Origin: an uncultured archaeon
Lineage (GTDB): Archaea; Halobacteriota; Methanosarcinia; Methanosarcinales; Methanoperedenaceae
Reading direction: 5' to 3'
Assembly (NCBI GenBank): GCA_902386205.1
Contig: CABMIH010000074.1
Span: 1 to 45,991 of the forward strand
Length of the DNA: 45,991 nt
The translations under genes were made by a program, and so were the position numbers. Below the pieces are notes generated by a model that searched no databases, was not told the DNA's origin, and worked only from the letters and a program-made list of their open reading frames with translations. Each line of letters starts with the position of its first letter. Position 1 is the stretch's first letter. Shown one piece after another: positions 23,954 to 37,764 of the stretch.

Positions 23954-24199
23954 TTATTCCTCCTCTCCCTTTTTGGTCAACATAATAGTGAACAATATCA
24001 GTGTCACGACTGCTCCAACATAGACAAGCACCTGTATCCATGCAACGAACTCAGCCTTAAGGAGAATGAAGAACGCTGCAGTTCCCATAAATGAGCCCGC
24101 AAGATACACGGCGCTGTGGACTAATTTTCTGGATCGGATTACCATAATAGATGAAAGTATGGTGATAACCGAGATAACTAAAAATACAATATCTATCAT
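23954..24199 (-). CDS. fpoJ: F420H2 dehydrogenase subunit FpoJ, N-terminal part
   Basis: An 81-residue protein equal to the first half of NuoJ, with three helices. It has the VYLAGSFMGTAAFFILLKAEFVAWIQVLVYVGAVVTL-type region of helices 2-3, including the conserved Glu and the pi-bulge-like GAVVTL stretch that couples quinone reduction to pumping in complex I. The ATG overlaps the fpoI stop (ATGA). Together with the next gene it makes one complete J subunit. Confidence 0.92.
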   Translation of the reverse strand: MIDIVFLVISVITILSSIMVIRSRKLVHSAVYLAGSFMGTAAFFILLKAEFVAWIQVLVYVGAVVTLILFTIMLTKKGEEE

Positions 24200-24612
24200 T
24201 TATTCACCTCTTTCTTGAACAATATCCTTTCCGGACCATACACCAGGCTCTCCCTGCTGTAATTTGCCAGTTCATAGCCTCCGTTCATTTTAATGGCATT
24301 CATCGGACAGGCATCCACGCACAATCCGCAGAAGAGGCACATTCCGAGATTGAATTCGGGAAACCACCTGCCATTATACTTGACTATCCTGATAGTACCG
24401 TTGGGGCAACTTACTTCGCATATCCCGCAGCCGATGCACGCATCCTGATCTACTGAATGGCGACCCCTGAACCTGGGAGCCAGCTTCATCTTCTCATAAG
24501 GATACTGGACTGTTACAAGAGGTCTATTCCCGATATGGAAAATATGTTTCAAGGTGACAATGAGTCCTTTCATTATTCCGGTCATTGCCCAGTTCTTTGA
24601 AATCCAAGCCAT
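24196..24612 (-). CDS. fpoI: F420H2 dehydrogenase subunit FpoI (two [4Fe-4S])
   Basis: Ferredoxin-like subunit, 138 residues, that passes electrons from FpoF to FpoB. It has two full eight-Cys motifs: CIGCGICEVSCPNGTI at about residues 59-74 and CLFCGLCVDACPMNAI at about 93-108. The first ~30 residues form an amphipathic helix that in complex I lies on the membrane. It is joined to fpoH and fpoJ by ATGA overlaps at both ends. Slightly shorter than bacterial NuoI. Confidence 0.96.
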   Translation of the reverse strand: MAWISKNWAMTGIMKGLIVTLKHIFHIGNRPLVTVQYPYEKMKLAPRFRGRHSVDQDACIGCGICEVSCPNGTIRIVKYNGRWFPEFNLGMCLFCGLCVDACPMNAIKMNGGYELANYSRESLVYGPERILFKKEVNK

Positions 24613-25709
24613 CAGACCACCCCTGCTGTCAACAGGAAACTGGTCACTAACAGGTTCAATAAAGCTAAAGGTATCATGATTTTCCAGCCGAGGTTAAGTA
24701 ACTGGTCAATCCTCATTCGTGGGACTGTATCTCTTAACCACATTGCGAAGAATATCACGGCATAGGTCTTTATGATGAAATACACCAGAGATGTTATCTG
24801 GACCGGAATAAAAGGCAGTACAGGTCCTGTCCACCCTCCAAGGAAAACCGTGACTATAACTCCGGATACTGCAAACATGTGAGCATATTCCCCGAGGAAG
24901 TACATCGCGAATTTCATTCCGCTGTACTCGGTATAGAATCCGGCCACAAGCTCCTGTTCAGATTCCTGGAAATCGAAGGGTATGCGTCCCATTTCAGCAA
25001 TGGATGCGATGAGAAACAGGATAAATGCCAGGGGTTGCACGAATATGAACCATCTGGGTATTATGTCGAACCATGTCCCTTCCTGGGCCCTTACTATATC
25101 TACCGTACTGAGGGAGCCTACATACAATACCACAGCAATCGCCGCCAGAGCAAGCGGTATTGTGTAGCTTATATCCTGTGCCACGGCCCTCATAGCGCCC
25201 ATTAGGGAATATTTATTATTGGAAGCCCACCCTGCAAGAAGAATAGAAACGGGTGAGAGCGCAGATATTGCAATAATATAGAGTAATCCGATCCTCAGGT
25301 CAGATATGATAAGGGAATCGCCAAACGGAAGGGGGATAAATACAAGGAGCGCAGGTACAAATATGATAAATGGCGCAAGTGTGAAAATCCACCTGTCTGC
25401 GCCTGCAGGGATAATATCTTCCTTTCCGACAAGCTTAATCCCGTCCGCGATAGGCTGGAAAAGCCCGTGCGGTCCTGTTATCATGGGTCCGTACCTTGAC
25501 TGCACCCAGGCAAACATTTTACGTTCCAGCCATGAAAGGAACATCACTGTAAGAAGCACGAAAACCAACAGGACTACAATTTCTACCACTATTATAATAA
25601 TTCTTAAAAGATATTCCATTCCGTAATTCTGGAAGAACCCGTTTATCGGGTCATAGATCCCTATTGCAGATAAAATATATACTACCAGCTCGTAAGCATT
25701 TGCTATCAT
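24612..25709 (-). CDS. fpoH: F420H2 dehydrogenase subunit FpoH (NuoH-like)
   Basis: Membrane subunit of 365 residues that forms the entrance of the electron-acceptor cavity, here for methanophenazine. Signatures: WLERKMFAWVQSRYGP and GLFQPIADGIKLVGKE after helix 1, MGRIPFDFQESEQELVAGF with the acidic E-channel residues, and WLRDTVPRMRIDQLL near the C-terminus. About eight helices. I chose the ATG at 25709, four bases after the fpoD stop with AGGTGATA just before it; the in-frame start at 25754 lies inside fpoD. Confidence 0.95.
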   Translation of the reverse strand: MIANAYELVVYILSAIGIYDPINGFFQNYGMEYLLRIIIIVVEIVVLLVFVLLTVMFLSWLERKMFAWVQSRYGPMITGPHGLFQPIADGIKLVGKEDIIPAGADRWIFTLAPFIIFVPALLVFIPLPFGDSLIISDLRIGLLYIIAISALSPVSILLAGWASNNKYSLMGAMRAVAQDISYTIPLALAAIAVVLYVGSLSTVDIVRAQEGTWFDIIPRWFIFVQPLAFILFLIASIAEMGRIPFDFQESEQELVAGFYTEYSGMKFAMYFLGEYAHMFAVSGVIVTVFLGGWTGPVLPFIPVQITSLVYFIIKTYAVIFFAMWLRDTVPRMRIDQLLNLGWKIMIPLALLNLLVTSFLLTAGVV

Positions 25710-25713
25710 TTTA

Positions 25714-26862
25714 TCACCTGTCCACATCGCCGAGAACAATGTCAATGGTTCCAAAAGCTGCTATAAGATCCGGGATCTTAAGCCCCACAATCATCTTTGG
25801 GAGTGCAACGAGGTTGCAAAACGAAGGCGAACGTATCTTGACCCTGTATGGCTTGGTGGTGCCATCGCTGACAACATAGAATCCGAGTTCACCTTTTGGA
25901 GCCTCGGTTCTCGTATAGACTTCACCCACAGGAGGTGTGAATATTCTCGGGAAATATGTCATGACCGCTGATGGCGCTCCTGTCATGGGAGCTATTCCGT
26001 ATTTTTGGGTAGTGATTATATCTCCTGCAGGCATGGTATCGGCTACCTGTCTTAAAATATGAAGGCTTTCCTTCATCTCATCCATCCTGACAAGATATCT
26101 GGCATAGCTATCGCATTCTTTGCGGACGCATGCCTTGAAATCAATATCCGGATAGATGGAATATGGCTCAAGTTTCCTTATGTCATAATTCACGCCTGAA
26201 CCGCGAAGCGATGGTCCGGTCATCCCGTAATTGATCGCCTCATCAGCATTTATTACCCCGATATTCTTCATTCTCAGTAGGAATATTTCGTTACCGTTAA
26301 TCAACTGTTCATAATCAACTATCCGCTTTTCCATGTCTTTTATGAAATCATTGAGCTTGGGAATGAAACCTTCAGGCAGGTCTTCTCTCACTCCGCCAAT
26401 CCTCATATAGCTGAAAGTCATCCTGGCGCCGCAGAGCATCTCATATAACTGAAGAGCCTTCTCTCGTTCCCTGAATCCCCACATTATCGCTGTGTTCGCC
26501 CCAAGGTCCAGTATCAGAGAACCCATAAATACGAGATGGTTAATTATCCTGTTGAGCTCCAGTGTGAGTACACGAATATACTCCGCCCTCAACGGCACCT
26601 CTATGTCTGCAAGCTCCTCGACAGCTTTGACGTAAGCATAGTTGTTGGGCATGGCAGAGAGGTAATCCAGTCTATCGGTATAAGGGATGAACTGCAGATA
26701 GGTTTTCATCTCTCCCAGTTTTTCAGTTCCCCTGTGCAGGTAGCCCATAACAATCTCGCAATCCCTGATTATTTCTCCGTCCATCCTTAACTTGAACCGC
26801 AACACGCCATGCGTGGCTGGATGCACAGGTCCCATGTTTAAAAGAAGTTCATCTGTTTCCAT
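25714..26862 (-). CDS. fpoD: F420H2 dehydrogenase subunit FpoD (NuoD-like)
   Basis: Peripheral 382-residue subunit related to [NiFe]-hydrogenase large subunits; with FpoB it forms the acceptor-reducing site. Family motifs: GPVHPATHGVLRFKLRMDGE, GYLHRGTEKLGE, PYTDRLDYLSAMPNN (with the Tyr and nearby His/Asp of the quinone pocket), RMTFSYMRIGGVREDLPEG, and the C-terminal LIAAFGTIDIVLGDVDR. The hydrogenase Cys ligands are absent, as in all complex I forms. It begins one base after the fpoC stop. Confidence 0.96.
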   Translation of the reverse strand: METDELLLNMGPVHPATHGVLRFKLRMDGEIIRDCEIVMGYLHRGTEKLGEMKTYLQFIPYTDRLDYLSAMPNNYAYVKAVEELADIEVPLRAEYIRVLTLELNRIINHLVFMGSLILDLGANTAIMWGFREREKALQLYEMLCGARMTFSYMRIGGVREDLPEGFIPKLNDFIKDMEKRIVDYEQLINGNEIFLLRMKNIGVINADEAINYGMTGPSLRGSGVNYDIRKLEPYSIYPDIDFKACVRKECDSYARYLVRMDEMKESLHILRQVADTMPAGDIITTQKYGIAPMTGAPSAVMTYFPRIFTPPVGEVYTRTEAPKGELGFYVVSDGTTKPYRVKIRSPSFCNLVALPKMIVGLKIPDLIAAFGTIDIVLGDVDR

Positions 26863-26863
26863 G

Positions 26864-27367
26864 CTACCTCCTCCTTAACAGGTTTGACCCGTCTGTGCTT
26901 ACTATATCTTCCCCATCTTCCCCCATTGTCACGAACTGCTCTGTTTCCATGTCATAATCTTTTCTGAGCGGATGTCCGTTCCAGCCATCGGGCAGCAGTA
27001 TCCTGACAAGATTGGGATGACCTGTGAACTTAATTCCTACAAGATCATATGTTTCTCTCTCAAGCCAATCAGCAACTTTCCAGATAGATGCAACCGAGTC
27101 CACGGATGGGGCCTCATGGTCAAGAACAACTTTTAATACAAGATTCTCTTTCTTCTTGTAAGAGAAGAAATTATAGATAACCTCGAACCTGTCCCTATAA
27201 TCAATGCCGGTAATTACGGAAAGGTTGTCAAAACCCATTTCTTTGACTTTACCTGCGGCCTTTAATATCTCTTCCTTTTTTATGATGGCAAGAGGCTTAT
27301 CGATCAGCATCCCCGTGCTCACCACTGCCGCCGGCATTGCCTGTTTCAACTCTTCTGCTGCATTCAT
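26864..27367 (-). CDS. fpoC: F420H2 dehydrogenase subunit FpoC (NuoC-like)
   Basis: Peripheral subunit of 167 residues without cofactor, holding FpoD and FpoI together. The C-terminal signature is complete: ERETYDLVGIKFTGHPNLVR followed by ILLPDGWNGHPLRKDY. I chose the ATG at 27367, which has AGGTG upstream; a longer reading from 27394 would add nine residues. The start codon and ribosome binding site lie inside a perfect 10-bp hairpin, the third of three hairpins in the 77-base spacer after fpoB, the only long gap in this operon. Translation of fpoC and everything after it may therefore be controlled at this point. Confidence 0.95.
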   Translation of the reverse strand: MNAAEELKQAMPAAVVSTGMLIDKPLAIIKKEEILKAAGKVKEMGFDNLSVITGIDYRDRFEVIYNFFSYKKKENLVLKVVLDHEAPSVDSVASIWKVADWLERETYDLVGIKFTGHPNLVRILLPDGWNGHPLRKDYDMETEQFVTMGEDGEDIVSTDGSNLLRRR

Positions 27368-27388
27368 AAAGCGACACCTCGCTTTATG
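27365..27388 (-). promoter_or_regulatory. Hairpin holding the fpoC ribosome binding site and start
   Basis: Minus strand: CATAAAGCGA-GGTG-TCGCTTTATG. The 10-bp stem is perfect. The last three bases of the 3' arm are the fpoC ATG, and the AGGTG ribosome binding site fills the loop and the base before it, so the start codon would be paired when the hairpin forms. Confidence 0.65.
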
Positions 27389-27395
27389 ATACATA

Positions 27396-27414
27396 GGGTA
27401 TGCGAAGCATACCC
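27396..27414 (-). promoter_or_regulatory. Second hairpin in the fpoB-fpoC spacer
   Basis: GGGTATGC-TTC-GCATACCC on the minus strand, a perfect 8-bp stem; inside, C(TTC)G makes the very stable cUUCGg-like turn. It lies seven bases before the start-codon hairpin. Confidence 0.6.
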
Positions 27415-27424
27415 TCCATTTGAT

Positions 27425-27443
27425 AAAACTTTCCTAAAGTTTT
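27425..27443 (-). promoter_or_regulatory. First hairpin in the fpoB-fpoC spacer
   Basis: AAAACTTT-AGG-AAAGTTTT on the minus strand, a perfect 8-bp stem that begins at the base right after the fpoB TGA. AT-rich, so weaker than the other two. Confidence 0.55.
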
Positions 27444-28037
27444 TCATTTATTAAGCCCCCATTTTGCCCCGTATCCCTGGCTCTTGATCTTTTCTCTTAA
27501 TTGGATAATCCCGTAAAGCCATGCCTCAGGTCTCGGGGGACAGCCCGGAACATACACATCCACGGGGATGATATTATCCACACCTTTCAGGACAGAATAT
27601 GATTCGATGTACGGTCCACCTGTGTTCGCGCAACTACCTATTGAAATGACCCATTTGGGTTCGGCCATCATCTCGTACAGTTGCTTGACCCTCGGTGCCA
27701 TCCGCTTGGTAACCGTGCCTGCCACGAACATGAGGTCTGCCTGCCTGGGGCTTGCCCTGAATGCTTCCATCCCGAATCGCGCAAGATCATGGTGCGCCAT
27801 TGTAACGGCCATCATCTCAATGGCACAGCAGGCAAGACCTGAGGTAACAGGCCACAAGGAACTGAAACGCCCCCAGTTAATAAACTGATCCACGGTCGAG
27901 AAAAGGATCATGCCTTCCCTTTCCCTTGCTGCCAGCAAAGTATTTATCAGCCCGGTATCGTTAAGTTTTTCAAGTGCAGTCTCCGGCTTCTTTTTAGCAG
28001 GTTTAATTTTTGTTGTATCAATGGTTACTGAGTCCAC
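27444..28037 (-). CDS. fpoB: F420H2 dehydrogenase subunit FpoB (NuoB-like)
   Basis: Carries the terminal [4Fe-4S] cluster (N2) that reduces methanophenazine. 197 residues; the four ligands are visible as the adjacent pair in [12 protein letters not shown], the Cys in [17 protein letters not shown], and the Cys in [17 protein letters not shown]. The first ~35 residues form a Lys-rich tail ([15 protein letters not shown]) not needed for the fold. The gene overlaps fpoA by 13 bases, so the two are translationally coupled, and is followed by the only long spacer of the operon. Confidence 0.96.
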
Positions 28038-28399
28038 TCTAAAGCCTCCTTTCTCCAGGCATATGCAAGACCGATTATAAGTATCTCAATAAAAACCACC
28101 ATTTCAATGAACCCGATAGCCCCAAGTTGTTTGAACTGTACAGCCCATGGATATAAGAACAGAACCTCAACATCAAAAATCAGGAAAACAATAACAATCA
28201 TATAATATTGTATATTGAAATGTATCCTGGCATCGCCTATCGGGATCTCCGCACATTCATACGTGGATAATTTTACCTTTGTTTTATTGCTGGGTCTGAT
28301 TATCCAAGACAATAACAGTGCGATCGCCACGAAAGCGATACCGATTACTGTTAAGAGCGCAACTGGCAGGTAATTATCTAAAAGTTCATTTGATACCAT
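28025..28399 (-). CDS. fpoA: F420H2 dehydrogenase subunit FpoA (NuoA-like)
   Basis: First gene of the fpo operon: 124 residues, three helices. The conserved loop between helices 1 and 2 reads [24 protein letters not shown], with the ECxE-type motif seen in NuoA, and helix 2 has [16 protein letters not shown] with its two acidic residues. A strong ribosome binding site AAAGGTGG precedes the ATG, and a TATA box lies about 48 bases upstream. Electron input subunit FpoF is not in this operon, as in Methanosarcina. Confidence 0.95.
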
Positions 28400-29657: not shown

Positions 29658-29734
29658 ATTTTCAGACCTGCAACTACTATATTTAAATATTTGAAGTGAA
29701 AATATTGAGTAAGGTCAAAGGAGGCCGAGATAAT

Positions 29735-31762
29735 ATGAATAAGATCAAGACCATCGTGCTGATGGCGATGGTTTTGACTGTGATTACGGCAGTCGCGCTT
29801 GCAGAAACTGGTGTTGTGGCCAGTTCAGCAGGAGGCGTTATTGGTAACACTTCAAATAATACTATCACTGCAGACGGCTCTGCAACAAGTGTTATTAGTA
29901 GCTATTCAAAAAGCGCGATAACCCGTGATGCGGTCAAGACACAGCTTGGCACGAGATATGCAGCAGGTACGCTCACAAAAGCGGAACTGAAAAATGCTGT
30001 AACTGCAGCATACAATCACAACACATTGAAAAGAGATGACTTAAGGTGGCTGCTGGGTGAGATGTATAAAGAAGGCAAACTCACACGGCCAGACCTGCGT
30101 TGGATTCTTACCGAAGCCTATAAAAAAGGCCAGCTTACAAGAGACGATGTTCGTTTTATTGTCGCTGAAGCATACAAGAACGGGGAGCTTACAAGGGCTG
30201 ACGTCAAGTTCCTTGTGACAGAAGCTTATAAGGCAGGCGAACTCAAACGCAGCGACGTGGCGTGGATTTTAAACCATGCATACAAGAACGGAGAGCTTTC
30301 CCGCGAAGATCTGAGATGGATTATTATGCAAGCTTATAAGGCCGGTGAGCTTACGCGGGACGATATACGCGAAATAGTGATAGCGGCTTACAATCGCGAA
30401 GAACTCAAACGTGACGACGTGAAATGGCTGCTCATGCAGGCATACAAGAACAATGAGCTTACACGCGAGGATATCCGCATCCTTCTGACCGCGGCCTACA
30501 ACCACGGCGAACTATCAAGGGCTGATGTGAAATGGCTGCTCATGCAGGCATACAAGAATAATGAGCTTACAAAGGATGATGTAAAATGGATCCTGGCTGA
30601 AGCCTACAAGCTCGGCGAACTGCGAAAAGCCGATGTGCTCTGGGTGCTGAACGAGGCATACAAGGCAAAAGAGCTTTCAAGATCAGATATCAGCGAACAG
30701 GACATCACCGGGGTCCAGCCTGAGGTTGAGCCTGCCGATGTGCCCAGCGTTGAAACCATAACCGAGCCGAATGCCGAGACTGCGGACAGGGCAACGACAG
30801 TAAGAACATTTGATGAAGAGAAGAACGCGGCTCCCGCAGATTCTGTCATAAAAACCAAACAGGCATGGATGCTCTATAAATATGCGCTCTTGCCTGCTGA
30901 GAAACACCGGGTCGGGATGGAAGCGTTGATAGGCTATGTTGAAGCCCAGGGAAAAGACGCCTCAAAACTTTCAACATTAAAGGAGAACTTCGTATCCCTG
31001 ATAGACCAGCTCAGGGCAGCGGCGGAAAAAAATGACTACCAGCTTGGAAAGAGATTAGTAACCCAGATGAAGGATACGGTCGCAAGCTTTAAGACCGAAG
31101 TGAAGCTGCTTGTTGCAGGCAATGAAACAGCTGCAAAAGGGGCCCTGGATGCAGCACTTTTACAGAACAGCGATTATTTCGACTCTCTTGTAACAGAAGC
31201 CAGGGAAGCAAAAAGGGACAGGAACCTTGAGTTCTTTGACCTTGCAAGTGCACGGGCACAGGGAAGGCTTGACAAGGCAAAAGAAAAAGGAATCGATGTG
31301 AGTGCCCTCCAGGCAAAACTGGATGAAATAACAGAACTCAGGAGCGAGCTCCTGGATGCCATGAACACAGGTATTGCATCCTGCAAAGGAGAAGGTATCG
31401 GGAAGTGCAATACAACAGAATCAGCGGCCTACATCGCGCTCAGGGAAGAGATAAGGAACAAGTATAAAGAGCTTGCAGAACTGGCAAAAACCGCGGGGCA
31501 GGCCCAGAGGTTTTCCGCTGCTATTACAAAGGCAAGGGAAATCATAGCAAAGGGCGAGACGCTCCTTGACACCGCGGAAAAGCGCGGTGTCGATGTATCC
31601 AAAGAAAAGGTAAGTCTTTCCGATATAAAGGGCCTTGTGGATTCCGCTGAGTCCAAATACAAAGGCGGGGACTTCACAGGTGCGGCAAAGGATCTAAAAC
31701 AGGCCCAGGAGAAATATAAAACCCTGAGAAATGATGTGGTTTCAAGGAGGAATACGAAATGA
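29735..31762 (+). CDS. Secreted protein with fifteen 18-residue repeats
   Basis: A 675-residue exported protein. Residues 1-23 are a signal peptide (KIKTIVLMAMVLTVITAVALA), followed by a Ser/Thr/Asn-rich stretch. Residues 57-326 consist of fifteen tandem 18-residue units with a Tyr at every 18th position and the consensus Y-K-x-G-E-L-T-R-x-D-V-x-W-[IL]-[LV]-x-x-A. Residues ~345-395 are an acidic linker with Pro, and residues ~395-675 are helical and charged, with two Cys near residue 550 (ASCKGEGIGKC). I chose the ATG at 29735 because AAAGGAGG precedes it. It is overlapped at its end by a lipoprotein gene (ATGA). Family unknown; an extracellular helical scaffold or adhesin is likely. Confidence 0.75.
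   Translation: MNKIKTIVLMAMVLTVITAVALAETGVVASSAGGVIGNTSNNTITADGSATSVISSYSKSAITRDAVKTQLGTRYAAGTLTKAELKNAVTAAYNHNTLKRDDLRWLLGEMYKEGKLTRPDLRWILTEAYKKGQLTRDDVRFIVAEAYKNGELTRADVKFLVTEAYKAGELKRSDVAWILNHAYKNGELSREDLRWIIMQAYKAGELTRDDIREIVIAAYNREELKRDDVKWLLMQAYKNNELTREDIRILLTAAYNHGELSRADVKWLLMQAYKNNELTKDDVKWILAEAYKLGELRKADVLWVLNEAYKAKELSRSDISEQDITGVQPEVEPADVPSVETITEPNAETADRATTVRTFDEEKNAAPADSVIKTKQAWMLYKYALLPAEKHRVGMEALIGYVEAQGKDASKLSTLKENFVSLIDQLRAAAEKNDYQLGKRLVTQMKDTVASFKTEVKLLVAGNETAAKGALDAALLQNSDYFDSLVTEAREAKRDRNLEFFDLASARAQGRLDKAKEKGIDVSALQAKLDEITELRSELLDAMNTGIASCKGEGIGKCNTTESAAYIALREEIRNKYKELAELAKTAGQAQRFSAAITKAREIIAKGETLLDTAEKRGVDVSKEKVSLSDIKGLVDSAESKYKGGDFTGAAKDLKQAQEKYKTLRNDVVSRRNTK
29903..30712 (+). 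repeat. Tandem array of fifteen 54-base coding repeats
   Basis: The 18-residue units of the secreted protein are exactly in phase over 810 bases with no indel. Protein identity between units is high while most codons differ, so the array is old, but two neighbouring double units (around 30424-30475 and 30532-30583) share long DNA matches such as GGCTGCTCATGCAGGCATAC, which points to a later 108-base duplication. Confidence 0.85.
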
Positions 31763-31974
31763 GAAGGCTATATCTGATAATGGTCGGTCTTCTGGTACTC
31801 CTGGTTGTTACGGCAGGTTGCGTGAACAAGCAGCCATCTGAGCAACCTCAACAGAATACCCCATCGGGTTCATCTCTTGAAGGCAATATAACTGTCCCTG
31901 GAGAGAAGGACCTGGTGATAGAAGATGCACAGACAAGCCAGGACGAGAACATCGATATGGGCTCATTGATTTGA
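31759..31974 (+). CDS. Small putative lipoprotein
   Basis: A 71-residue protein with a lipobox signal peptide: basic start MRRLY, hydrophobic core LIMVGLLVLLVV, then TAGC with the lipid-attachment Cys at residue 21. The mature part is short, polar and acidic (QPSEQPQQNTPSGSS..., ending SQDENIDMGSLI) with no fold evident. Its ATG overlaps the TGA of the repeat-protein gene in an ATGA junction, and GGAGG lies just upstream inside that gene. The coupling suggests that it anchors or accompanies the secreted repeat protein at the cell surface; that is inference. Confidence 0.7.
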   Translation: MRRLYLIMVGLLVLLVVTAGCVNKQPSEQPQQNTPSGSSLEGNITVPGEKDLVIEDAQTSQDENIDMGSLI

Positions 31975-31980
31975 GCCCGG

Positions 31981-32003
31981 TTTTCTTTTTTAGTCTTTTT
32001 TTA
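31981..32003 (+). terminator. T-rich terminator after the lipoprotein gene
   Basis: Two long T tracts (TTTTCTTTTTT and TCTTTTTTT) within 25 bases, a few bases after the lipoprotein stop codon. Archaeal RNA polymerase stops at such T runs without needing a hairpin. Confidence 0.65.
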
Positions 32004-32210
32004 TTATAGGATTTCTACATGGAAATCAAATTTGTTTAGTGTGGGAACGTATATCATCCCCGGGAGCAGCCAGCGTGAAACGGATTATGGCTATTCGGAT
32101 TTACATAAAGTTGTTGACAGACAAGCTTTTCTTTACTATAGAAAACCTTAAGTGTATTCTCCTTCATAAGATTTTATTGTTGCCAGTTGAAGTCAAAGGG
32201 GGTGACAAAA

Positions 32211-32527: not shown

Positions 32528-32549
32528 GAAAATTAAAGTGGAGGTTACG

Positions 32550-34055
32550 ATGAAAAAGATTAGCTTAATTGGTATTTTAGCAGTTGCTCTCATCTTTGGG
32601 GGTCTTGCTGGCTTAAATGCAGTAAACGCATCGTCTGAGAAAACACTGGATGAACAAATCCGCGGAAATGTAAATCAGATGGTCAACAATCAAATTAATG
32701 ACGCACTGGGGCAAATCAACGAAGAACCGTTATTGTCCCCCGGTCTCATAAAAAAAGACCCGGCTCTAAATAACGCACAGCAGATGGTACTGGAAGGGAG
32801 GCAGATCTTCCGTTTCGATACCTTCGGTGACGAGGCATTCTGGGGAGATACGCTTCAACTTCACAAGGCCATAGCAGGGGAGAAGTTTGGCGGCGTGGGG
32901 CCTGGCGTTAACCCGAAGACCGCACTGGCTGTGGGCCTGAAGGTTGATGTGGATGCACTTCCCAGGAGTCTTATCAGAGACCTTGAAAAGGGCAAAGTAA
33001 ATCTCGATGACCCGGCTACAACCCTTGCACTTCTTAAACTCAATGCTGTAGTGGGAGTCAAAGGCACCTTTGATAAGAATGGAACTATTACAACGATGGG
33101 CATTACGTGCGCCTTATGCCATTCCACGGTCGATAACTCGCTGGCTTTCGGCATCGGCCACCGTCTTGATGGCTGGGCGAACCGCGACCTGAATGTAGGG
33201 GCAATAGTAAGTCTTTCCCCCAACCTGAAACCCGTCGCCGATCTTCTTGGCACGGATGAAGCCACGGTTCGAACAGTATTGAATAGCTGGGGGCCCGGTA
33301 AATTCGATGCCGAGCTTTTCCTTGATGGTAAGGCATTTAATCCTCAACAAGTCACTGATGGCGTTGTAACCGGGACAAATGTGTCTGGTGCTACATTGCT
33401 TCCGAACGCTTATGGCCTGGCCGGATTCAACCAGCATACATGGACAGGCGCATGGGGCAGTGTCCCGTACTGGAATGCCTTTGTTGCGAACCTCGAGATG
33501 CACGGGAAAGGGACGTTCTTTGATCCCAGGCTTGATGATGCAACGAAGTTCCCCATAGCTGCAGCCAATAAATTCGGGCATGTACTAACTGATCCTGATG
33601 AGGACATGATCACCTCGAAACTTCCGGCCCTCCAGTTCTATCAGCTTGCTCTCCCGTCGCCGAAGCCAAAAGCTGGTGTAGACTTTGATGAAGCGGCCGC
33701 AAAACGCGGGGATGAAATTTTCGGCGGGAAGGCGCAGTGCAACAACTGCCACACTGAGCCGCTCTGGACTGAGCCTGGCTGGAATCTGCACAAACCATCT
33801 GAAATTGGAATCGACAGCTTCGAGGCGGATAGGGCGCCGGATGGAGTTTACAAGACGATGAATCTGGGCGGCATATTTGTACGAGAACGCGGCCTGTTCA
33901 TGAAACCTGAGAATAAAGGTCGCTTCTACCATGACGGTCGTTTCGCAACCCTGCTGGATGTCGTGGATCACTACAATAACTTCTTTAAGCTGAACCTGAG
34001 TGACCAGGAAAAGAATGATCTGGTAGAATATCTGAAATCATTGAGTTCGCCTTAG
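32550..34055 (+). CDS. Exported di-haem cytochrome c (MauG/CcpA-like)
   Basis: A 501-residue exported protein with a signal peptide (KKISLIGILAVALIFGGLAG). It has two c-type haem sites: CALCH at residue 187 and CNNCH at residue 397. The C-terminal part, with ALPSPKPKAGVDFDEAAAKRGDEIF before haem 2, the EVRERGLFMKP-like stretch and YHDGRFATLLDVVDHYN after it, matches the di-haem cytochrome c peroxidase/MauG superfamily, where YHDG or FHDG follows haem 2. The N-terminal ~170 residues and the region between the haems are longer than in plain CcpA. Substrate unknown: peroxide, a protein side chain, or electron transfer to outside acceptors. ATG at 32550 with GGAGG seven bases upstream. A single gene ending at a clear terminator. 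Confidence 0.85.
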   Translation: MKKISLIGILAVALIFGGLAGLNAVNASSEKTLDEQIRGNVNQMVNNQINDALGQINEEPLLSPGLIKKDPALNNAQQMVLEGRQIFRFDTFGDEAFWGDTLQLHKAIAGEKFGGVGPGVNPKTALAVGLKVDVDALPRSLIRDLEKGKVNLDDPATTLALLKLNAVVGVKGTFDKNGTITTMGITCALCHSTVDNSLAFGIGHRLDGWANRDLNVGAIVSLSPNLKPVADLLGTDEATVRTVLNSWGPGKFDAELFLDGKAFNPQQVTDGVVTGTNVSGATLLPNAYGLAGFNQHTWTGAWGSVPYWNAFVANLEMHGKGTFFDPRLDDATKFPIAAANKFGHVLTDPDEDMITSKLPALQFYQLALPSPKPKAGVDFDEAAAKRGDEIFGGKAQCNNCHTEPLWTEPGWNLHKPSEIGIDSFEADRAPDGVYKTMNLGGIFVRERGLFMKPENKGRFYHDGRFATLLDVVDHYNNFFKLNLSDQEKNDLVEYLKSLSSP

Positions 34056-35737: not shown

Positions 35738-35827
35738 ATGTGGGAAAATAAATTAAGAAAGAAACGTCAGTCAAATGTTAGAACAGAAAATCGTTTACGA
35801 TCTGGTCTGGAATGGGGGATGAATTAA
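35738..35827 (+). CDS. 29-residue basic leader ORF of the protease cassette
   Basis: ATG at 35738 with a strong GGAGGAAG ribosome binding site, 29 codons, and a TAA that shares its last base with the protease ATG (TAATG). The peptide begins MWENKLRKKRQSNVRT and is rich in Lys and Arg, with no hydrophobic segment. The junction implies that ribosomes finishing this ORF start on the protease. It may be a regulatory leader peptide or a small partner of the protease. Confidence 0.55.
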   Translation: MWENKLRKKRQSNVRTENRLRSGLEWGMN

Positions 35828-37764
35828 TGAACGAAGAATTTGAGAAGCCTCCAAAAGGAGAGCTAACAGATAGACCTGTACCCCCGAAAATAGCCAAAGC
35901 CAAAGAAGCCAAAGTAGCAGCTAAGGCAGCAGCTAAAGCAGCAGCAGCAAGAAAAGGAAAAACCGTTTTGATAATAAATGGTGACAATGATATACATTTC
36001 GAAGACGATCAGAGTGTTCTTGCGTTCACATCAGCGTTTCAGAACATGGGAGATGAAGTGAGAGTTGAACTAGCAAAGGATACTTCATATTCAACATGGG
36101 GTAATTATGATATTGTGGTCTGGAGCTGCGGGGATGATTATTCTGCAATAGGTGATGTAAACAACAAGCAGATGCTTGTTGATTATGTAAGTGGTGGAGG
36201 GTGTCTGATACTTGAGGGTGGAAATATTGCGGGATGGTGCAAAGAATTTGGAGCAGGGACAATCCCTAATCGTATGTTTCGTGAAAAAGTGCTTTATGCA
36301 ACAACAGATTGGGTGTATCACGATGTTGGTGATCTGAAATTAAAAAATCCGCATCCAATTGCGACCACACCGAATAGTCTTCCTGAAACCATTGGCTTCA
36401 CACCAACTGAACCCGGTGATGGCTCTGGTGATGCAAACGCTGTCAGGATTTTACCCGATGCTACAGGCATATATAATTGGTCTTATGTTGCCTACAATGG
36501 TAACCTCGTAAGAGAGAGTGTATCAAGCATCTCATACGGGTTGATAGCATGTGAATCAGAAAATGGCGGTCGAATAGTGTACTATGCCTTTGATATAGAT
36601 GACATTGACAACCCCGACATACAGCAAAAATTAATACAAAATTCAGCAGACTGGCTTAGAAAAACTTCAAATCCTTCTGCATTAATAATCAGTAGCAAGG
36701 GTCAATTAGTTGAAAAATACGGAGAAGATGGATTTAATCAGATTGAACAAAAGATCAACGATTACATACAGGCTTTAAACAATGCTGGCCTTTTGGGAAA
36801 TCTGATATATGTGGATGATGAAAACTGTTTGTCTCCATTTGAGTTAAACCCGGTTGATCCAAAAGATGCCAACAAAATAAAAGAATTGCTGGACGACCTG
36901 GATAGAAAACTTGTCCCAAGTACTTTCTTAATCCTGGGAGGGCATTCAATAATCCCATTCCATATTATAGATAATCCATGTGGAAATGATGGTGATTCCC
37001 AGGTATATTCAGACAATCCATATGCTTCCAGAAATGAGGATATTCTCATACCAGAACGTTCTTTGGGTAGGTTGCCTGATGACAGTTCCACGAATGTCAC
37101 ATTTTTAATCTCTTTATTGGAAACAATCACATCCAGGATTAAAAAGGCGAAGAAATCTTCTTTTGGTTTATCTGCGAAGGTCTGGAAAGAAGCATCTGAG
37201 TATGTTTATGATGCAATAAAATATGGTCAAGAATTAAAACTATCACCACCTGTCCTTAGTAACAACCTGAAAATAGATTGGATTAATGATAAAGGATATT
37301 TTTATTTTAATCTTCACGGTTCGGAAGAAACCCCGAATTGGTATGGTCAAGAGAATTCAAGATATCCGGTTGCATTTAGTCCAGACAACTTAGCTAATAC
37401 AAATGTTGAAAATGCAGTTATTTGCACTGAGGCTTGCTACGGGGCAAATATTATTGATAAGAGTGTGGATGAAGCTATCTCGCTGAAGTTCTTGGAAAGA
37501 AAGGCAGCTTGTTTTGTGGGTTCAACTAAGATCGCTTATGGTCCTTCAGAACCGCCCAGTACAGATGCAGATCTTATTGTGTTGAAATTCTATGAGCATA
37601 TCAAAGAGGGACTCACTTTTGGAGAAGCTTTTATTAGAGCTAAAAAAGACTTTGCAGATGAGACTATTCGCAGGCTTGGTTATCTTGATGAGACTGGCAA
37701 AAAGACGTTATTAGAATTTGTGATGTTTGCCGATCCGGCATTGAAAATGGAGGAGACAGAATGA
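35827..37764 (+). CDS. C25/caspase-like cysteine protease with amidotransferase-like N-domain
   Basis: A 645-residue protein without signal peptide. Residues ~18-45 are a Lys/Ala-rich helix; ~45-280 resemble a class I amidotransferase/ThuA-like domain (YDIVVWSCGDD, LVDYVSGGGCLILEGG); ~285-643 form a clan CD protease domain like gingipain-type C25 peptidases. The catalytic pair is His497 (FNLHGSEE) and Cys537 (ICTEACYGANI), followed by the family features AACFVGSTKIAYG, LTFGEAFIRAKKDF and FVMFADPALKM. Cytoplasmic location sets it apart from secreted gingipains and recalls CHAT/caspase-type enzymes of defence or cell-death systems. It is coupled to the 29-residue leader ORF and overlaps the next gene (ATGA). 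GC content is lower than in the flanking chaperone genes, which suggests acquisition. Confidence 0.75.
   Translation: MNEEFEKPPKGELTDRPVPPKIAKAKEAKVAAKAAAKAAAARKGKTVLIINGDNDIHFEDDQSVLAFTSAFQNMGDEVRVELAKDTSYSTWGNYDIVVWSCGDDYSAIGDVNNKQMLVDYVSGGGCLILEGGNIAGWCKEFGAGTIPNRMFREKVLYATTDWVYHDVGDLKLKNPHPIATTPNSLPETIGFTPTEPGDGSGDANAVRILPDATGIYNWSYVAYNGNLVRESVSSISYGLIACESENGGRIVYYAFDIDDIDNPDIQQKLIQNSADWLRKTSNPSALIISSKGQLVEKYGEDGFNQIEQKINDYIQALNNAGLLGNLIYVDDENCLSPFELNPVDPKDANKIKELLDDLDRKLVPSTFLILGGHSIIPFHIIDNPCGNDGDSQVYSDNPYASRNEDILIPERSLGRLPDDSSTNVTFLISLLETITSRIKKAKKSSFGLSAKVWKEASEYVYDAIKYGQELKLSPPVLSNNLKIDWINDKGYFYFNLHGSEETPNWYGQENSRYPVAFSPDNLANTNVENAVICTEACYGANIIDKSVDEAISLKFLERKAACFVGSTKIAYGPSEPPSTDADLIVLKFYEHIKEGLTFGEAFIRAKKDFADETIRRLGYLDETGKKTLLEFVMFADPALKMEETE

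Follow-up and report, generated by a model that had tools for sequence, protein, structure and literature searches.

What kind of protein is built from fifteen exactly phased units of 18 residues, and what could such a protein do in the envelope of a methane-oxidizing archaeon? Named alpha-solenoid families have units of about 30-45 residues, which mostly consist of two different helices, and to our knowledge few surface proteins beyond cytochromes have been explained in archaea that oxidize methane with external electron acceptors. The question is raised by a pair of genes on contig CABMIH010000074.1 of an uncultured member of the Methanoperedenaceae (assembly GCA_902386205.1), the whole 45,991 nucleotides of which are designated the window. 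The first gene encodes an exported repeat protein and the second a small lipoprotein. The features of the locus are the following:

29681..29692, plus strand: TATA-box-like archaeal promoter element TTTAAATATTT (conservation across orthologues)
29717..29726, plus strand: ribosome-binding site AAAGGAGG ahead of the ATG at 29735 (sequence)
29735..31762, plus strand: gene of the exported repeat protein, 675 amino acids (open reading frame, dN/dS, orthologues in 9 of 31 genomes of the genus)
29735..29806, plus strand: Sec-type signal peptide MNKIKTIVLMAMVLTVITAVALAE, about residues 1-24 (lysine in the n-region, hydrophobic core, AxA motif)
29903..30712, plus strand: fifteen 18-residue units, residues 57-326, with one predicted 13-residue helix each
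30713..30844, plus strand: acidic disordered linker, residues 327-370 (pLDDT below 50 at residues 332-374; net charge -8)
30845..31759, plus strand: C-terminal helical domain, residues 371-675 (Cys550, Cys558 and the sequon at N463 invariant)
31759..31974, plus strand: gene of the lipoprotein, 71 amino acids (open reading frame; strong matches in exactly nine carrier genomes)
31958..32006, plus strand: terminator-like hairpin with T-runs, spanning the end of the lipoprotein gene and the DNA after it (consensus scan)

The start of the lipoprotein gene overlaps the stop of the repeat-protein gene via an ATGA, and this overlap is kept throughout the orthologous loci. Upstream of the pair, the box TTTAAATATTT is present in seven orthologues (as TATAAATATTT in one of them), the DNA farther upstream having diverged, and the ribosome-binding site of the orthologues is GTCAAAGGAGG or a variant of it. 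The start codon at 29735 is supported by AAAGGAGG ahead of it and by the box, which seven orthologues conserve; by its likeness to the archaeal TATA consensus, the box would serve as promoter. Among the neighbouring genes, the lipoprotein alone is conserved throughout, and the others vary by species: fpo and dus beside the pair are shared with one close relative, and the adjacent cytochrome was seen at none of the seven loci over the length available for each. As the promoter box, both genes and the lipoprotein tail are conserved while the neighbours change, the two genes are regarded as a self-contained cassette. Export and coupling to a 71-residue lipoprotein, both proposed in the original prediction, are supported by the signal peptide, which was called by eye from the sequence, and by the overlapping open reading frames.

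Genes for complex-I-type fpo subunits (the NADHdh, 49-, 30- and 20-kDa subunits and chain 3) lie just upstream of the cassette on the minus strand (24196-28399). Downstream, the product of positions 32538-34055 is probably exported, bears two CxxCH haem motifs and resembles a di-haem cytochrome, its matches to Pfam cytochromes being weak only; its gene was not found next to the cassette of the closest relative. A 650-residue protein encoded at 35812-37764 has no Pfam match at 1e-5 and contains the motifs HGSEETPNWYG and EACYG, which we take to be reminiscent of peptidases of the caspase/gingipain fold (C25-like).

The phasing of the repeats is as perfect as originally claimed. Tyrosine occurs fifteen times, at residues 57, 75 and so on to 309, with an exact spacing of 18 residues and zero indels; 14 of the units are clean (residues 75-326) and the first (residues 57-74) is divergent. 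The self-identity of the region at shifts of 18, 36, 54 and 72 residues is 0.46, 0.50, 0.44 and 0.49, whereas it never exceeded 0.157 in 2000 shuffles for which the best of lags 10-59 was taken. The consensus of the unit, from 13 units of 7 species, is YKNGELTRDDVRWLLTEA. At the DNA level, a single repeat is detectable (108 bp, 1.9 or roughly two copies, 79% match); because the array is nearly invisible in the DNA, the duplication must be old and the repeat is one of protein, not a recent DNA repeat.

Within the unit, position 4, which lies in the loop, is glycine or asparagine in 100 of 104 cells (96%), and threonine or serine fills position 7, which precedes the helix, in 71 of 104. Hydrophobic residues at positions 11, 14, 15 and 18, together with Leu6, give the helix a strongly amphipathic character, and position 13, tryptophan or phenylalanine in 78 of 104 cells, is located on a face 146 degrees from this hydrophobic core. 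Between species, the core positions freely interchange valine, isoleucine, leucine and methionine, whereas Tyr1, Arg8, Asp10 and Trp13 are mostly invariant, a pattern in the aligned units that suggests either a surface under selection or contacts between units. Units two apart are 53% identical and adjacent ones 49%, and an even/odd alternation of the units was not significant (permutation p 0.11). With this value and a period of 18, one helix, rather than a hairpin of 36 residues, is considered the unit; a concealed 36-residue hairpin is not supported by the alignments, a weak one being conceivable.

AlphaFold2, run on the full-length protein with eight orthologues, predicts helices of 13 residues and loops of 5 residues in the repeats and longer helices C-terminally. 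When the repeats were modelled alone, with an input of 7-8 fairly similar sequences, the best model reached a pLDDT of 89.3 and a pTM of 0.84 and contains 14 evenly spaced helices, the remaining four models having a pLDDT of 64-70; the register of helices and loops is identical in both runs. As one model of five is confident, the repeat fold is likely, short of certain. The structure prediction advocated originally as a check has therefore returned a repeating fold, and it bears out the helical unit and the regular solenoid that had been anticipated: in the predicted model, evenly spaced helices follow one another, joined by short loops, and would be stacked as in an alpha-solenoid. A Foldseek search of the PDB with the predicted solenoid gave no close match, the best ones being designed helical repeat proteins; the same search with the whole protein was uninformative, and a search of a viral library returned no match below an E value of 0.003. 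The repeats probably form a new repeat class among the alpha-solenoids.

The original prediction described residues 57-326 well and left out a second domain. Residues 371-675, nearly half of the protein, form a separate helical domain that is unrelated to the repeats, with an invariant pair of cysteines, Cys550 and Cys558, which form a probable disulphide, and an invariant N-glycosylation sequon at N463. Distantly related to it are secreted helical proteins that stand alone in other Halobacteriota genera (L033, L034 and L035); they lack repeats, unlike the Methanoperedens protein, and Pfam holds no family for them; the alignment with L033 (1042-2103) by hhalign has a probability of 97.6% and an E value of 3e-12, and weaker matches of the domain are coiled-coil-like and may be due to chance. 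Since the relatives of this domain have no repeats, the latter seem to have been added, in this genus alone, to an envelope module of wider distribution.

The lipoprotein is composed of a hydrophobic N-terminus ending in a lipobox (TAGC, with Cys21), a variable linker and a conserved acidic tail, GNITVPGEKDLxIED..TSxDENxDMGSLI, which has a net charge of -6 and an invariant C-terminal GSLI. In all eight lipoprotein sequences, the hydrophobic N-terminus is followed by an [SA]GC lipobox with invariant Gly-Cys, and an NxT/S sequon is likewise invariant. The protein thus has the signal peptide and the lipobox cysteine that characterize archaeal lipoproteins, its lipidation being putative. One invariant sequon in each of the two proteins and the invariant cysteine pair would fit an extracytoplasmic location.

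The repeat protein is carried by nine of the 31 Methanoperedens genomes, including BLZ2, M. nitroreducens Mnv1, MnB_21, FeB_1, LC 1 and LFW-280_3_1, and the lipoprotein was found in the same nine (E 1e-35 or better; next match 3e-6). The cassette is missing from the other 22 genomes, and on a DnaK tree the pattern of carriers requires at least five gains or losses; its role is therefore considered accessory. Fifteen units are present in all eight full-length orthologues, and units of the same index are 80% identical between species compared with 48% for different indices; hence there is no turnover of units within the array. The protein is under strong purifying selection (dN/dS about 0.07-0.18), the values being 0.07-0.13 for the repeats and 0.08-0.18 for the C-terminal domain. 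The ninth copy (G011, L018 1-1112) comes from an incomplete genome, where its contig measures 5.7 kb; five units, a large part of the C-terminal domain and a recognizable signal peptide are missing, and the copy may be decayed or misassembled.

Beyond Methanoperedens, a search of 345 genomes from the same phylum yielded false matches only, and no relatives of the repeats were found in the viral contigs, phages and plasmids searched; prokaryotic genomes as a whole were covered by one pattern-based scan. One false match (L029) is the antisense of a Pro/Ser repeat, another (L030) overlaps a glycosyltransferase-like open reading frame, and the best plasmid match, from Pseudodesulfovibrio, consists of 18-residue repeats that are unrelated to the Methanoperedens array and resemble a coiled coil. 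Two of these sequences are worth describing in their own right: L029, from a genome in the same order, contains at 749-2680 a long Pro/Ser/Asp repeat with 18-residue units such as SDSVISPSLPDPLDSPLI, the opposite strand of which is also a long open frame, and a glycosyltransferase encoded on the Pseudodesulfovibrio plasmid (L097 1850-5479) contains the independent, near-perfect 18-residue repeat AERDKVLVAEQARLEGEL. In the literature, no paper was found about the repeat protein, nor any about a helical solenoid with 18-residue units. A natural alpha-solenoid with one 18-residue helix per unit, half the unit of TPR or Sel1, which stands outside every curated repeat family and forms, together with a dedicated lipoprotein with an acidic GSLI tail, a complex of the envelope that exists in some Methanoperedens and nowhere else is a description that we put forward tentatively, and on balance it is somewhat less likely than not.

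How might the two proteins work together? In the mechanism that we prefer, and to which we would give about an even chance as a whole, the product of the first gene would be exported by the Sec system as a protein of two parts, the fifteen-unit alpha-solenoid and a bundle of C-terminal helices that probably contains a disulphide, and the product of the second gene would be anchored at the external side of the cytoplasmic membrane. The acidic tail of the lipoprotein, with GSLI at its free C-terminus, would probably dock on the first protein and thereby tether it between the membrane and the S-layer, where the solenoid might act as a scaffold or receptor of fixed length that binds a protein or polymer partner via the residues repeated in every unit. 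Docking and tethering are suggested by a conserved tail that sits on a flexible linker past the lipid anchor and is always paired with the solenoid. Solenoids that bind acidic or free C-terminal ends are well known, examples being TPR domains with EEVD ends and PEX5 with PTS1. The charge of the tail and the repeated lysine, arginine, tryptophan and tyrosine residues would be compatible with docking, for which either domain of the first protein could provide the site.

The original prediction had suggested adhesion, cell contact or an extracellular matrix as possible roles, and a stalk or adhesin at the surface, or a filament of the matrix, its repeats supplying length or polymerizing, would indeed account for regular repeats, an export signal and a lipoprotein. 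Position 13, opposite the hydrophobic core, might furthermore be a surface for side-by-side assembly; in the models, its tryptophan could either be packed against the neighbouring helix or be free. The repeat number of adhesive stalks commonly drifts, but all full-length orthologues are fixed at fifteen individually conserved units, and fifteen stacked helices of 13 residues make a short object. By eye, moreover, the mature protein has neither a transmembrane segment nor a wall or S-layer anchor, and its partner is a membrane-proximal lipoprotein. An adhesive role was therefore not borne out and appears unlikely; a defined scaffold or receptor is more in keeping with the fixed length, the unit-specific invariant residues and a partner close to the membrane. 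Still less probable is a binder of clients or ligands, such as a pseudoperiplasmic chaperone or cargo adaptor, with the lipoprotein as mere anchor and its tail serving another partner. Alpha-solenoids commonly bind peptides, and the PDB matches are solenoids of the peptide-binding type, all of them weak, but nothing points to a specific client, and mutual binding is the better explanation for a lipoprotein that is always present and keeps its tail. The period of 18 residues equals five helical turns and, as in the coiled-coil-like repeat of the unrelated plasmid glycosyltransferase, could reflect one continuous long helix or a coiled coil; the glycine or asparagine at position 4 of nearly every unit, the frequent threonine or serine at position 7 and the loop placed at every unit by both AlphaFold2 runs make this very improbable.

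A different origin would be a tandem array of the SHOCT/DUF1707 type, in which the SHOCT helix-loop-helix would be the ancestor of the unit and SHOCT activity would be exerted many times over by one protein. DUF1707 (SHOCT-like, PF08044) is the sole Pfam family that exceeds its whole-protein cutoff (38.2 bits vs. 27.6) and is matched by the repeat regions of all seven members tested; the unit aligns in register with a true SHOCT protein encoded in this genome (KKYARGEISKEEFEEKKKDLL, 42.5 bits), and a Naegleria protein with eight SHOCT copies is on record (PMC3581485). The best single stretch, however, scores 18.5 bits, an idealized array of three units 22 bits and an N-terminal fragment 20.8 bits, and the SHOCT profile itself (PF09851) gives 13.0 bits, or 16.5 for idealized units, against a cutoff of 27. 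The helix-loop-helix profiles EF-hand_6 and VbhA score similarly on the unit, so the motif may be convergent helix-capping. As no single copy passes the DUF1707 cutoff and the EF-hand and VbhA profiles behave alike, the likeness is recorded and the protein left outside DUF1707; kinship of the unit with SHOCT/DUF1707 may serve as a lead, and a SHOCT array in the full sense seems doubtful. The original statement that no named repeat family has this unit holds in that no characterized repeat family was matched, and it needs the qualification that DUF1707, which is no solenoid family, does pass at the level of the whole protein. A genuine SHOCT domain of this genome ends a small membrane protein (L045) encoded near a gene for a heavy-metal-type P-ATPase.

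Several other assignments were rejected. An EF-hand or dockerin is not consistent with the loop YKNGELTRDD, which is without DxDxDG ligands (EF-hand_7, 13.3 bits vs. a cutoff of 30), nor is an S-layer or PGF-CTERM surface protein with a C-terminus of SRRNTK and, by eye, no hydrophobic segment past the signal peptide. Many low-scoring families of Pfam and NCBIfam that were named on the repeats (Spo16_C, AcMNPV_Ac75, LcrQ and others) were discarded as summation of scores over the repeats, and a Borg-type tandem-repeat protein does not agree with a fixed number of position-specific units and the lack of near-identical recent DNA repeats.

If the proposed reading is correct, an array with one 18-residue helix per unit would show in simple form how alpha-solenoids could have begun and would give the designed helical repeats a counterpart in nature, and it would name a cell-envelope component of archaea that oxidize methane with external electron acceptors. 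With SHOCT and DUF1707, the unit has in common the motif Y/F-x-x-G-x-[IL]-[TS]-x-x-[DE]-[VLF] of a helix-loop-helix in the same register; SHOCT, for which a test of oligomerization was negative, usually occurs as a single copy at the protein C-terminus (PMC3581485), whereas fifteen units are arranged head to tail here in an exported protein. Two units, or 36 residues, have the length of one Sel1 or TPR hairpin, but Sel1 and TPR units consist of two different helices in about 34-44 residues, and the repeat protein has a period of 18 and an alternation of p 0.11. A match of the repeat profile to HcpC (1ouv, E 9e-4) is the sole resemblance to Sel1: the Pfam Sel1 profile gave no match on the repeat protein in lists at E values up to 1 and up to 10, and no good superposition of the repeat model on solenoids of the Sel1/TPR class was obtained. 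The best Foldseek matches of the repeat model, the designed repeats 8cwy (E 4e-5) and DHR4 5cwb (E 7e-4), are artificial, and their TM-scores (query) are just 0.31 and 0.12. Tandem repeats associated with Methanoperedens are shared by this array and the proteins of Borgs. In PMC9879509, Borg repeats are described as recent and fast-evolving, as creating disordered regions and as virtually absent in the host; the array described here, by contrast, is old, conserved and predicted to be ordered, and it lies beside the fpo operon.
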